Source: a virus
Reading direction: 5' to 3' (one strand)
IMG/VR virus record: IMGVR_UViG_3300042389_001027
Location: 62,001 to 126,000 of that record
DNA: 64,000 nt
The notes beneath the pieces were generated by a model, which did not search any database, was not told the origin of the DNA, and worked only from the letters and a program-made list of their open reading frames with translations. Position 1 is the first letter of the stretch; each line of letters begins with the position of its first letter. Below are positions 6,838 to 56,546 of this stretch, one piece after another. A program made the translations under genes and the position numbers.

Positions 6838-7580
6838 TGAGCGAAATTAATATTGTTACAGTCGGCAACGCGACACATCGCGTGAGTTCATTTTCTTGCC
6901 CTCCACAGTTGCCTTCTATTGTTGAGTTTAAAGATTTCAGCCGTTCTATCTATGCTCGCTTAACGGAATCAGATAAATTTGATTTACGTACTTCTTCGCG
7001 TTCTGAAGAGTTTCTTGCTTATGGCTTAGTCGGAGCCCCTGGTGGGGAAGATATTGCTCCAGTCGTTTGGAGTTCTCATGGGCAAGCAGAAATGTATGGA
7101 CGTTTATGTGGCGCAAAGAACGTTTTTATACATAGTGTTCCGTACGCTATTTATTTTGCGGCTCACAACTATGAGAATGTTTATGTTTTAAATTGTGCAT
7201 CAACACTCATTGCAGGTTCGCACGATACGGCAAGCGATGCCGAAATCACAAACGTGACCACGCTTTCATGGGATAATGCCTATAACAACATGCCCGAACT
7301 GGATATGGCTATCGTGATGTATTCACACATCTGTGCTGATGATTCGTTATTTGATGCAATCATGAACGCGATGAAGCCAAATGGCGTAGTTGTTATCCAT
7401 AACTCAAGCAACGGTGGCGCACTCTATGAGGTACTTGGGGACAAGAAGCCTTTAGACATGGCTGCAGAAGTTTCCCTTTCCGCCTTGCTACACAAAAAAA
7501 TTCTTGAAAGGGGCGATTTTTTGACGCAACATTTTCAGGGCTGGGTCTCCCACACTGTATGCGTTAAACTGCCATCATGA
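6837..7580 (+). CDS. Possible Rossmann-fold (methyltransferase-like) protein
   Basis: About 247 residues; the ATG at 6837 is favoured over that at 6834 because it sits 7 nt from a GGAG. The segment ELDMAIVMYSHI ... AMKPNGVVVIHNSS resembles strands 4-5 of class I methyltransferases (an acidic strand, then a PGG-like turn and a VVIH strand). The glycine-rich SAM loop is not obvious, so the assignment is weak. It is followed by the halogenase with a 4-nt overlap. Confidence 0.6.
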   Translation: MSEINIVTVGNATHRVSSFSCPPQLPSIVEFKDFSRSIYARLTESDKFDLRTSSRSEEFLAYGLVGAPGGEDIAPVVWSSHGQAEMYGRLCGAKNVFIHSVPYAIYFAAHNYENVYVLNCASTLIAGSHDTASDAEITNVTTLSWDNAYNNMPELDMAIVMYSHICADDSLFDAIMNAMKPNGVVVIHNSSNGGALYEVLGDKKPLDMAAEVSLSALLHKKILERGDFLTQHFQGWVSHTVCVKLPS

Positions 7581-9067
7581 ATAAGGAACATCAACCTATC
7601 AGTTTTGGGATTGTCGGCTCTGGAACAGCAGGGCTGATTTCCGCAATCATGCTACGACAGGCTTTTCCCCTGTCTAAAGTAACCATTGTTTCTTCAAGTA
7701 CCATTGGGATAGTTGGTGTTGGGGAGGGAAGCACTGAACATTGGCGCGAATTTATGAATTTGTGCGACATCCCACTTGAGCAAATGTTGGTCAAAACTGC
7801 TGCTACACACAAATATGGAATTCGTTTTGAGGGTTGGTCTGGCGCTTTCCCTAATTATTTTCATAGCGTTTCTGGCGATGAAGCAATTTATGGGTGGGGG
7901 CACTACCCAACATATGCTGGCATTTTTGAAAATGGGGACTCATTAACAAGCCAAACCAGCAGTATTGGTTTAGTGCAGAACAAAATTAAGCGCGAAAACC
8001 TACATTCAAACACTAACCAATACCATTTTGACACTTTCAAACTCAATAACTATTTTACTGAATTATGTTTCAGGCGCTCTGTAAAAATGATTGATGGGCA
8101 AGTCGCAGACATCACGCGAAATACTGAAACAGGAAATATCTCCAGCGTAATTCTTGATACTGGAAGTTCAGTAGAAGCAGATTTTTGGATTGACGCTAGT
8201 GGCTTCGCTCGTGTATTGATGAAAAAACTGGATGCTTCCAACTGGAACTCATTCTCCGACTATCTTCTTGTTGACTCAGCGATAGCCGCACCATCAGAAT
8301 CATGGGCAGAAGGAATACGTCCATACACAAGGGCTATTGCCAAAGATTCTGGCTGGATTTGGGAAATCCCAACACAAGAGCGGCGCGGTAACGGGTATGT
8401 GTACTCATCACAGTTTGTTTCCGATGATGAGGCTATTGCAACATTAGAGAAGCAAATCGGACCACTGTCTGTTTCGCCAAGAAGTTTCAAATTTGATGCA
8501 GGTCATGTCAAAGAGGTTTGGGTTAAAAATTGCATGGCTATCGGTTTGGCTGCTGCTTTTGTTGAGCCATTGGAAGCGACTTCAATCGGCAGCACTATTC
8601 AGCAGATGAAATATGCTATTCCGTATTTTGCATCTTTTGAACAAACCCACACAGCATCACAGAAGCATTACAACAAGTTATTCACAAGAATGATGGACAA
8701 TATCTTAACAATGATTCGTCTCCACTACATCTCGGATAGACGGGATACGCCATTCTGGGTTGCTTGTTCGGAAATGAAAATTAACGATTCACTTCAGGAA
8801 CTTCTTGACCTTTGGCAGGAAAGAGTTCCATGCCGAAATGACGTCGGGGGCATCAATGGGGAAATGTTCCATGCGCCTCATCTGTTTCACGTGGCTCAAG
8901 GGCAAGGCGTACTGAATGCAAAGTCCGCAACGTTGATGATTGACAATTTTAATCTTCGCAAGCAGGTTGAGTTAGATATCTCCAACCGTCGTCATGCTCG
9001 TTTCAATCATGAGTTGGTTGACCATCGTGAGTCACTAAATATGCAATTTGAGGATGAAATACTTTGA
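7577..9067 (+). CDS. Flavin-dependent (tryptophan-type) halogenase
   Basis: 496 residues, the usual length for the PrnA/RebH family. Seen: the FAD motif GIVGSGTAGL (residues 11-20), the catalytic lysine K79 in THKYGIRFEGW at the same number as in PrnA, the family signature WIWEIP at 260-265, and FVEPLEATSIG (328-338) equivalent to the EPLE-S/T segment around the catalytic Glu. These enzymes halogenate using FADH2, O2 and halide; a flavin reductase is not seen here and may come from the host. Viral relatives are known in cyanophages (VirX1). It lies in the middle of a late-operon enzyme island. Confidence 0.93.
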   Translation: MNKEHQPISFGIVGSGTAGLISAIMLRQAFPLSKVTIVSSSTIGIVGVGEGSTEHWREFMNLCDIPLEQMLVKTAATHKYGIRFEGWSGAFPNYFHSVSGDEAIYGWGHYPTYAGIFENGDSLTSQTSSIGLVQNKIKRENLHSNTNQYHFDTFKLNNYFTELCFRRSVKMIDGQVADITRNTETGNISSVILDTGSSVEADFWIDASGFARVLMKKLDASNWNSFSDYLLVDSAIAAPSESWAEGIRPYTRAIAKDSGWIWEIPTQERRGNGYVYSSQFVSDDEAIATLEKQIGPLSVSPRSFKFDAGHVKEVWVKNCMAIGLAAAFVEPLEATSIGSTIQQMKYAIPYFASFEQTHTASQKHYNKLFTRMMDNILTMIRLHYISDRRDTPFWVACSEMKINDSLQELLDLWQERVPCRNDVGGINGEMFHAPHLFHVAQGQGVLNAKSATLMIDNFNLRKQVELDISNRRHARFNHELVDHRESLNMQFEDEIL

Positions 9068-27791: not shown

Positions 27792-27820
27792 ACTATACAC
27801 GAGGGGTGTAACATTGTCAA
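27792..27820 (-). promoter_or_regulatory. CACCCC-class promoter TTGACA-17-TATAGT
   Basis: Near-perfect hexamers; spacer ATGTTACACCCCTCGTG. Drives the 27758 unit. Confidence 0.85.
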
Positions 27821-38511: not shown

Positions 38512-38790
38512 TCAGTCCTCGCACTCGCAATCTTCGTGAGCCTCGTAGCACCAACCGCACTCGTCGCTGTAGTCGCTGTCCTCGTCGCTTCCGAAGTCAA
38601 TCCTGACCCACTTGGCGATGGTGGCGAGAACATTGTCGTAGTCGCCTGAGGTGGCTTCCTGACGGAACTCGCTGATGATGTCACGGGCAACGCCCGACCG
38701 CCTGAGAGCGTCGCTCACAGAGCCGATGAGAGAAAACGCATTCCCATCTACCCCAATGAGGTTCACTCCGATGTTCGGATACTTGACCAT
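38512..38790 (-). CDS. Conserved phage protein with Cys-rich tail
   Basis: 92 residues. The start (YPNIGVNLIGVDGNAFSLIG, VSDALRRSGV, SGDYDNVLATIAKWV) is a well-known small phage protein type of unknown function. The extra tail ECGWCYEAHEDCECED may bind zinc. Confidence 0.78.
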   Translation of the reverse strand: MVKYPNIGVNLIGVDGNAFSLIGSVSDALRRSGVARDIISEFRQEATSGDYDNVLATIAKWVRIDFGSDEDSDYSDECGWCYEAHEDCECED

Positions 38791-50105: not shown

Positions 50106-50570
50106 ATGGCGACAGCCCCAGTAACATTGGTCGGGCGTTTGACCCAAGACCCCGAACTCAAGTTCCTCGGTAATGGAACACCCAAACTGAGTTTTTCACT
50201 CGCAGTCAACCATTTTTGGAAAGACGCAAGTGGCGAAACACAGGAAAAGACCCACTTCTTCAATGTCATCGCATGGCGAAACATGGCGGAAGACGCAGCG
50301 GCAATCTTGGAAAAAGGACTTCAGGTCATTGTCCAAGGTCGTCTTGAGCAGGAATCATGGGATGACAAGGACACAGGCAAGAAGCAGTCCCGTGTCGTGA
50401 TTCTCGCAGACGAGATTGGCGCAACTGTGCGTGGCATCTCGGCGGTTTCCCGCAAGGCGAGCGGCGAAGGCGGCGCATCTTCAGGCGGGGCTCGTGCGGG
50501 CTCAGCAGTTGCGAAGGCGCAAGCAAAGGTCGCACCAAAGGTCGTTGAGGAAGAAGACGAACCATTCTGA
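50106..50570 (+). CDS. ssb: Single-stranded DNA-binding protein
   Basis: 154 residues, AAGGAG before the ATG. OB-fold motifs TLVGRLTQDPELKFLGNGTP, FSLAVNHFW, THFFNVIAWRNMAEDAA, VIVQGRLEQESW and an acidic EEEDEPF tail for partner binding. It should protect ssDNA in replication and recombination. Confidence 0.95.
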   Translation: MATAPVTLVGRLTQDPELKFLGNGTPKLSFSLAVNHFWKDASGETQEKTHFFNVIAWRNMAEDAAAILEKGLQVIVQGRLEQESWDDKDTGKKQSRVVILADEIGATVRGISAVSRKASGEGGASSGGARAGSAVAKAQAKVAPKVVEEEDEPF

Positions 50571-53054: not shown

Positions 53055-53393
53055 CTATTTTCTAGTGAACCACTTCAGTACTCGTGCCCGAAGCGAAGGA
53101 TTAACAATGTCGTTTGCCTTCACCACATTAGCGGTTTTTTCAATGATTTCCTTGATTCCTTCAGGCACGCTTGCGGTGACTTCAACTTTGATGTCGGCTT
53201 TCGCAGTGGATGTCTTCGGCGACTGTGTTTTCACGACTGTCTTCGCTGCGGGACGCTTACGCGGCTCAGCACTCTTCTGCGGCACAACTTTCTTCGCGGA
53301 TGCCTTCTTCGCACCCGCTTTCTTCGCAGCGGTTTTCTTCGCAACTGCTTTCTTCGCGGCTGGTTTCTTTTTGGGTTGCTTGCTTTCGTTCAT
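53055..53393 (-). CDS. Histone H1/HU-tail-like basic protein
   Basis: 112 residues from the ATG at 53393 (a GTG at 53444 is an alternative). Residues 5-65 are a Lys/Ala/Pro-rich tail (KKKPAAKKAVAKKTAAKKAG) like the C-terminal tails of actinobacterial HupB and histone H1; the rest is a short helical domain. It should bind DNA without specificity and may compact phage or host DNA. Confidence 0.75.
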   Translation of the reverse strand: MNESKQPKKKPAAKKAVAKKTAAKKAGAKKASAKKVVPQKSAEPRKRPAAKTVVKTQSPKTSTAKADIKVEVTASVPEGIKEIIEKTANVVKANDIVNPSLRARVLKWFTRK

Positions 53394-53468
53394 AACACGC
53401 AACAGTAGTACGAACTTCGTTTTCGTAAGAGCACTTTCGGTCACATTTTATGAGATAGGGTTACATTC

Positions 53469-54086
53469 ATGGATGCGTATCCAACAACTCTTGACAAAGT
53501 CGCCCTGGTAGTAGAAGCAGCGAAAGTCGCAAAATCAGATGCGGTAAAACTGAACGGAATCGGGGAGGACATCAACCTTAACTTGTTCGGGTGGCGGGAC
53601 TCCTCGCTGGTCGTCATCGCTCAGATGCTTGACAGCAGTCAGATTCCAAAAGACGAACGGTTCGCCAAAGTCGTGAATGCGCTTTGTATTATCAGACAAG
53701 GTTGGCAAGTTGATGGATTTACGATGGTTGCGGAAGCGTTTTGCTCACTTTTGCCGTCGGACACGAGGGGCAAAGACCTTGCGGCGCAGTTCGCCGAGAA
53801 GGATTCGCCTGTGATGGAGTGCCTCTCGTTCACGCACGTATCGCACAAAGATGCGCTCTTCGTAACAGTCCCGTACACGTGCGTTCCGCCTCGCACGGTC
53901 ATATACAAGACCCCGCTGAAGTACTCTGGTTACGAGGGTGTGCTCCGTGATAGAAAGTATCCCGCTGCGATGGGGAAGGCTCTTGACCTCCCGATTAGCG
54001 AGTCGGTGGTTGAGGATGGCGATGTGTTTCATGCCGTTCTCGCTGAGGGGTTGGCTGACGAAGGGTTTGATGTTCATTATCTTTAG
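53469..54086 (+). CDS. Hypothetical protein
   Basis: 205 residues, probably leaderless (TTACAT just before the ATG). Alpha/beta, includes SHKDALFVTVPYTCVPPRTV. No family recognised. Many small phages carry a similar-sized protein at this place, but I cannot assign it. Confidence 0.68.
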   Translation: MDAYPTTLDKVALVVEAAKVAKSDAVKLNGIGEDINLNLFGWRDSSLVVIAQMLDSSQIPKDERFAKVVNALCIIRQGWQVDGFTMVAEAFCSLLPSDTRGKDLAAQFAEKDSPVMECLSFTHVSHKDALFVTVPYTCVPPRTVIYKTPLKYSGYEGVLRDRKYPAAMGKALDLPISESVVEDGDVFHAVLAEGLADEGFDVHYL

Positions 54087-54090
54087 TTTC

Positions 54091-54120
54091 TTGACATAAC
54101 ACATCTGTTATGTGTATAAT
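54091..54120 (+). promoter_or_regulatory. Strong promoter TTGACA-18-TATAAT with palindromic operator
   Basis: ACATAACA-CATC-TGTTATGT, a perfect 8-bp inverted repeat (54094-54113), overlaps the -35 and spacer. The same core TAACACATCTGTTA is at 56518-56546. Confidence 0.88.
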
Positions 54121-54126
54121 GTAAAA

Positions 54127-54197
54127 AGCAGGCGTCTCCTTTCCGCCTGTGCCAAGACCCCCTCCGACTTCATGTGGTGGGGGTTTTTGGTTTTTTG
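54127..54197 (+). ncRNA. Short hairpin RNA with anti-Shine-Dalgarno-like loop
   Basis: Between a consensus promoter and a terminator lies about 70 nt without an ORF. The first hairpin is GCAGGCG / CGCCTGT with the nine-base loop TCTCCTTTC, which is complementary to GAAAGG(A/AGA) in the shared leader and close to the 16S rRNA anti-SD tail. The second hairpin is the terminator. A trans-acting RNA is the simplest reading; it has not been tested. Confidence 0.6.
54156..54197 (+). terminator. Rho-independent terminator
   Basis: ACCCCCTCC / GGTGGGGGT arms, then TTTTTGGTTTTTT. Confidence 0.9.
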
Positions 54198-56179: not shown

Positions 56180-56332
56180 TTCACAGTATTCATGGGGGTC
56201 GTGGTCGCATACTTCGTACCACACTTCCCATTCGTAATAGTCGTGGCTGTCAAGGTACTCTCGTACTTCCCTCTTAGCCTGTCGCCTGTGTTGCTTGACC
56301 TTGTGACGGTAATACAACAGTCCTAGTATCAC
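56168..56332 (-). CDS. Small protein with Cys/His-rich end
   Basis: 54 residues from a GTG. Basic helix (RHKVKQHRRQAKREVREYLD) then acidic, aromatic part ending CDHDPHEYCELC, a possible zinc site. Promoter about 190 bases upstream at 56518. Confidence 0.5.
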   Translation of the reverse strand: MILGLLYYRHKVKQHRRQAKREVREYLDSHDYYEWEVWYEVCDHDPHEYCELCT

Positions 56333-56410
56333 TTTGATACCCGTGAACTACCCGTGAGCATCTTGACGATGCGCCTGAGCGTCACTCTCCTTATCCAAGT
56401 CAAGTAGAGA

Positions 56411-56460
56411 TGTATCACTTCGTATCTCTTTGTATCACTTTGTATCCCTTTGTATTGCTG
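56411..56460 (+). repeat. Five tandem 10-bp repeats
   Basis: Consensus TGTATCNCTT: TGTATCACTT, CGTATCTCTT, TGTATCACTT, TGTATCCCTT, TGTATTGCTG. In register with one DNA turn, located in the leader of the 56332 gene. Confidence 0.8.
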
Positions 56461-56517
56461 ATTCCATTTATACAAACTCTTTCCTGTATTAGCAGAGGGG
56501 TCTCCTCCACTATAGAC

Positions 56518-56546
56518 AACATAACAGATGTGTTAGATGTTGTCAA
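56518..56546 (-). promoter_or_regulatory. Promoter TTGACA-17-TATGTT with palindromic operator
   Basis: Spacer holds TAACACATCTGT, completed to TAACACATCTGTTA by the -10; same operator core as the ncRNA promoter. Confidence 0.75.

Follow-up and report, generated by a model that had tools for sequence, protein, structure and literature searches.

A conserved small RNA gene in a phage genome, with a loop that copies the anti-Shine–Dalgarno sequence and may act on ribosome-binding sites

We describe a small RNA (sRNA) gene in a phage genome that is very likely real, conserved, and probably functional. The loop of its first hairpin, UCUCCUUUC, copies the anti-Shine–Dalgarno (anti-SD) sequence of 16S rRNA. 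The explanation that we prefer, with a probability of about 0.5, is that of an sRNA that would act in trans on Shine–Dalgarno (SD) sequences, resembling NfeR1 or 6C/B11 in its action. The window, i.e., the whole stretch of DNA that was analyzed (64 kb), covers bases 62001–126000 of a 128.6-kb virus record. The relatives of this phage include L001, which is identical, L255 at 97% identity, with a contig that ends before the sRNA locus, and L258 at ~72% identity. The locus itself is composed of the following genes and signals.

53469–54086 (+): upstream gene of 205 aa, function unassigned, syntenic in L258
54091–54096 (+): −35 hexamer TTGACA of the sRNA promoter, 18-nt spacer to the −10 (12/12 match)
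54094–54113 (+): putative operator, a dyad ACATAACA-CATC-TGTTATGT with perfect 8-bp arms, in the promoter spacer
54115–54120 (+): −10 hexamer TATAAT of the sRNA promoter; going by the spacing only, transcription would start near 54127
54128–54150 (+): 5′ hairpin with stem GCAGGCG/CGCCTGT
54135–54143 (+): loop TCTCCTTTC, anti-SD sequence, 9 nt, unpaired in the predicted fold
54151–54196 (+): intrinsic terminator GCCAAGACCCCC...GGGGGTTTTTGGTTTTTT, with a counterpart in L258
54241–54537 (+): downstream small gene (MNYY...) of 98 aa, likely with its own promoter 3′ of the terminator, syntenic in L258 (62% identity) and in L017/G018 (36%)

The initial annotation had described a TTGACA-18-TATAAT promoter with a perfect 8-bp palindrome, followed by about 70 nt devoid of an open reading frame (ORF) and a strong terminator, and all of these can be read directly from the DNA (54091–54196). 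The promoter, matching at 12/12 positions, is unique to the sRNA within the 8 kb scanned, and no other site in the 64-kb window combines perfect hexamers with an 18-nt spacer. On the plus strand, no credible ORF was found between the stop codon at 54086 and the MNYY gene. The locus thus combines the properties of a stand-alone sRNA gene (own promoter, no ORF, and intrinsic terminator), and so does its counterpart in L258, with a weaker promoter (an extended −10, TGATATACT). The same layout may also be read as a cis element: hairpin and terminator would end the mRNA of the 205-aa gene or serve as an attenuator for the MNYY gene, with the promoter doing no more than feeding it. A terminator lying between two co-oriented genes and retained in L258 would suit this role, yet we consider it quite unlikely, as the 12/12 promoter lies after the stop codon of the 205-aa gene and before the hairpin, L258 retains its extended −10 there, and the MNYY gene has a likely TTGACA-like promoter of its own downstream of the sRNA terminator. 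Moreover, conservation of an anti-SD loop would not be expected from attenuation.

The predicted RNA (~65 nt) consists of one hairpin, with UCUCCUUUC enclosed by GCAGGCG and CGCCUGU, and a G+C-rich terminator with U tracts. Its fold reaches −33 kcal/mol (z = −4.45), and none of 200 shuffled sequences folded as well. An occluded loop, which the initial annotation had named as an argument against its idea, was not seen; the loop bases have a predicted unpaired probability of 0.98–1.0.

To compare this loop with a ribosomal sequence, a host is needed. It is probably an actinobacterium, because of the affinities of the neighboring genes and the SD AGAAAGGAGGTG read from the called gene starts. A SNF2-type helicase in the neighborhood has its nearest match in Arthrobacter phages, and the DNA nearest to the nearby MazG homologue is found in Streptomyces phages. 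An SSB gene (50106–50570, +) and DNA methyltransferases are encoded nearby as well, and cyanophage proteins are ~46% identical to one virion protein. A search of named phages returned just the short MazG match (Streptomyces phages) and no relatives of the flanking genes, and a search of genome contigs returned no relatives. We take the actinobacterial 16S tail, ...CACCUCCUUUCU, to be that of this presumed host. Elsewhere in the window, the structural region carries a tryptophan-halogenase-like gene (7577–9067, +; PHROG 2928, E 2.5e-107), and 53055–53444 (−) encodes a Lys/Ala-rich histone H1-like protein with a weak Pfam HC2 match below the cut-off.

Among 126 strong hairpins on both strands of the window, this loop alone has 8 nt (CUCCUUUC) in common with the actinobacterial-type 16S tail, the next best having 5, which upholds the earlier proposal of a 16S anti-SD mimic. 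The match is only moderately unlikely by chance, because 17 of 500 shuffled 16S tails (3.4%) match some hairpin loop as well. Stronger evidence comes from conservation. L258 has the hairpin and terminator in the same place, between the same two genes, and there GUCUCCUUUCC, which comprises the loop with its closing pair, is identical at 11/11 nt (aligned block GTCTCCTTTCC, 11/11). The stem, on the other hand, has changed from GCAGGCG/CGCCTGT to ATAGC(G)AGGG/CCCTGCTAT with pairing kept, so that the L258 hairpin reads ATAGC(G)AGGG, loop TCTCCTTTC(C), CCCTGCTAT, followed by the terminator GAACCCCCC...GGGGGGTTC-TTCTTTT. The RNAalifold consensus of both sequences contains 18 pairs, of which three have both sides changed and none is broken. 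A sequence-specific role of the loop is likely, because both loop and pairing are conserved; an invariant loop on a rebuilt stem is probably the mark of a functional loop, judged here from the only two independent sequences that carry the RNA, which is few.

A coincidental anti-SD match, in the pyrimidine loop of an ordinary terminator hairpin or non-functional short transcript, is very improbable in our view. The 3.4% of shuffled tails would be in line with it, as would the frequency of long stems outside T4-like phages (2/25 for a reversed control loop vs ~4/50 for this loop), but the 11-nt identity on a compensated stem and the consensus promoter argue against it.

The RNA does not extend to the whole phage group. 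The more distant G018 keeps the order of a 205-aa-like gene end, an MNYY-like gene, and MazG; its sRNA position is taken by a plain hairpin together with a gene inserted in reverse, and TCTCCTTTC was not found anywhere in its 69.9-kb record. As the loop is absent from this syntenic relative, the RNA is restricted to part of the group. G015 and G016 (~80% identical, 20–35 kb) have no copy of the loop either and are not counted, their records not covering the surrounding region.

Possible partners were sought at the gene starts of the phage. Matches of 6–8 nt to the loop occur at 31 called gene starts; the SD score was among the criteria by which starts were called, which inflates the complementarity counts. 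At 11 genes that share a leader (see below), the longest complement averages 6.55 nt; the average is 4.19 nt for the other ATG genes (n = 68) and 2.91 nt for positions inside genes. The loop is not equaled at gene starts by any of 1000 random 9-mers, and at the non-leader genes only CTCCTTTCT, the true anti-SD, beats it among 125 permuted loops. At two AAGGAGA sites, the loop is predicted to bind more strongly than the 16S tail itself: −10.3 vs −9.5 for the gene at 38512–38790 (−) and −9.5 vs −8.3 for the SSB gene. The loop therefore reads, by its complementarity, as a general anti-SD whose best predicted partners are sites of the AAGGAGA type (GGAGA), that of SSB included; a search for a conserved single target found none.

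In the mechanism that we propose, the ~65-nt RNA would be made from its own sigma-70-type promoter and ended by its own terminator, and the open loop would mimic the 3′ end of 16S rRNA. It would pair in trans with SD sequences on mRNAs of the phage, and perhaps also of the host, competing there with the 30S subunit, and we infer a repressive sign of regulation, with translation of the best-matching genes lowered. The main targets would be genes with AAGGAGA/AAAGGAGA sites. Repression of this kind has precedents, as the loops of NfeR1 (PMC10746234) and of mycobacterial B11/6C (PMC10470900) repress mRNAs by pairing with ribosome-binding sites. As an antisense, however, a 9-nt loop with 6–8 possible pairs, several of them A–U, is weak.

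The initial annotation had put forward another target, namely the leader CTACTAGAAAGG found before many genes. This repeated leader is genuine: 17 matches with at most two mismatches were counted vs 2.9 expected, and it forms a short 5′ UTR, usually behind a TTGACA...ACACCCC...TATAnT promoter. The claimed pairing with GAAAGG(A) holds for the GAAAGG core (6 nt) and extends to 7–8 nt at a few leader genes; at most of them it stops at GAAAGG because a T comes after GG, so there is no leader-wide match. Any other anti-SD would match this core equally well. A coordinated shut-off of leader genes by an RNA that specifically recognizes this leader is possible but not favored over general anti-SD pairing, and we hold it to be distinctly improbable. 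It can draw on the complementary core and on the 6-nt pairing threshold that was applied to B11 targets (PMC10470900). However, complementarity ends past GG at most leader genes, CTACTA is wholly unmatched, the 16S tail pairs better with the leader (−8.0 vs −6.4 kcal/mol), and 8 of 125 permuted loops match the leader genes as well or better, with sequences such as CTCCTTTCT or TCCTTTCTC suiting the leader better than the actual loop. The promoter class TTGACA-n-ACACCC-n-TATAnT, with its conserved spacer box, occurs at 27792(−), 34215(−), 40924(−), 44163(+), 44671(+), 47578(−), and 56953(−), in several cases with the CTACTAGAAAGG leader downstream of it, and is also present in the distant relative L017/G018.

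The general anti-SD sRNA that we prefer would itself be under control of a regulator binding the promoter dyad. The 17-bp core of this putative operator, TAACACATCTGTTATGT, has exactly two copies in the 128.6-kb record, one in the sRNA promoter and the other as follows.

56519–56535 (−): second operator core TAACACATCTGTTATGT, 17/17 identical, in a leftward promoter region (TATAGT, 56514–56509); also in L255

An operator dedicated to the RNA, as first suggested, is thus not what we find, with the core also at one other promoter of the phage and the dyad absent from the L258 locus. That one putative regulator is common to the sRNA unit and the leftward unit is a fair inference from the shared core. 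The transcript predicted from the second promoter starts UAGUGGAGGAGACCCC, and an 8-bp pairing with the sRNA loop is possible (−10.0, two G–U pairs). Within the region 56400–56535 (−), this core is followed by a putative transcript start, rich in GGAGGAGA, and by ~4 imperfect 10-bp repeats (GATACAAAGn) within a possible 48-aa, TTG-start ORF (56329–56475). In other viral contigs, the operator 16-mer lies mostly inside unrelated sequence and outside promoters; the exceptions, L255 and L001, belong to the same phage type.

Hairpins with a similar loop exist in other phages too. In T4-like marine phage contigs, two tandem hairpins lie upstream of the gp44 clamp loader gene (15 distinct sequences), with unlike stems and with both loops being TCTCCTTTC or near variants (TTTCCTTTC, TTCTCCTTTC, and TCCTCCTTTC).

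L012:1258–1307 (−), L004:1282–1331 (−), L154, L163, L172, and others: gp44-upstream tandem hairpins with UCUCCUUUC-type loops

The second of these hairpins forms a perfect terminator. A TTGACA promoter comes after it, in some cases with a spacer dyad; no Rfam match was found for the tandem pair. In two related phage contigs (L008:7683–7697 and L014:3184–3198), the same loop hairpin stands directly 3′ of a tRNA-like sequence. A recurrence in many unrelated phages, as suggested by exact 17-mer/15-mer scans of IMG/VR, was rejected since a reversed-loop control gave a similar long-stem rate outside the T4-like group, and among the 80 loci of MazG neighbors no loop enrichment was found. We do not claim a universal loop motif. 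It is doubtful, though conceivable, that phages of different kinds share a class of sRNAs with anti-SD-copy loops, single here and in tandem, on two unlike stems of one RNA, before gp44, as ribosome mimics that would reset mRNA choice during infection.

The tandem hairpins also bear on another reading of the conserved loop, namely as a site for a host or phage protein (e.g., a ribonuclease or ribosomal protein that normally recognizes the 3′ end of 16S rRNA). The RNA would then be no antisense but a decoy or a stable, protected RNA. Protein recognition would account equally well for a loop that stays invariant while its stem changes, and the T4-like phages have the loop with no perfect complement in the gp44 start region. 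Nonetheless, the loop is an exact SD complement and beats nearly all permuted loops at gene starts, which a protein site would not need, and we regard this reading as unlikely. Under the preferred one, pairing with SD sequences, a ~65-nt mimic of the ribosome's SD-reading tail would, if true, be a very economical means to bias translation toward or away from classes of genes. It also offers a search pattern for other phages: an anti-SD loop, unlike stems, and a terminator.

Few phage sRNAs have been described, and the portion of a 2025 review drawn on here gives mostly Hfq-dependent or cis-antisense examples (PMC12197685). An Rfam search of the phage RNA gave no hit at the gathering score, with just unrelated chance matches at E up to 10. 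Non-coding RNAs of actinobacterial phages, made from an early promoter, are known from Cluster A mycobacteriophages (L5, D29, and StarStuff); their transcribed region spans ~500 nt, experiments showed them to be abundant and toxic, and an anti-SD loop is not described in the part of that report used here (PMC5712189). The Start-Associated Sequences of Cluster K (GGGATAGGAGCCC; PMC3203893) are, like CTACTAGAAAGG, a repeated conserved sequence at the ribosome-binding position before many non-structural genes; no partner RNA is known for them, and they bear on the leader, not on the sRNA. Closer to the proposed action are two groups of bacterial sRNAs. The alpha-r14 'cuckoo' sRNAs of alphaproteobacteria, with NfeR1, have hairpins with an ultraconserved, unpaired anti-SD loop on differing stems, which block translation by pairing with the ribosome-binding site (PMC10746234); the phage RNA likewise keeps its anti-SD loop while the stems vary (11/11 loop block in two sequences). 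Theirs, however, are chromosomal, tested experimentally, and built of three hairpins each with an unpaired CCUCCUCCC, whereas the predicted phage RNA has one, UCUCCUUUC, plus a terminator. Similarly, 6C/B11 of Actinobacteria are short RNAs whose open loops pair with the SD over at least 6 nt and compete with ribosomes (PMC10470900), and the phage RNA shares the open loop with a complement of at least 6 nt to ribosome-binding sites (the 31 called gene starts). In contrast to their two loops with runs of at least 6 C, the phage loop is single and mixed U/C (UCUCCUUUC), and the phage sRNA stands outside both the NfeR1 and the 6C/B11 families.
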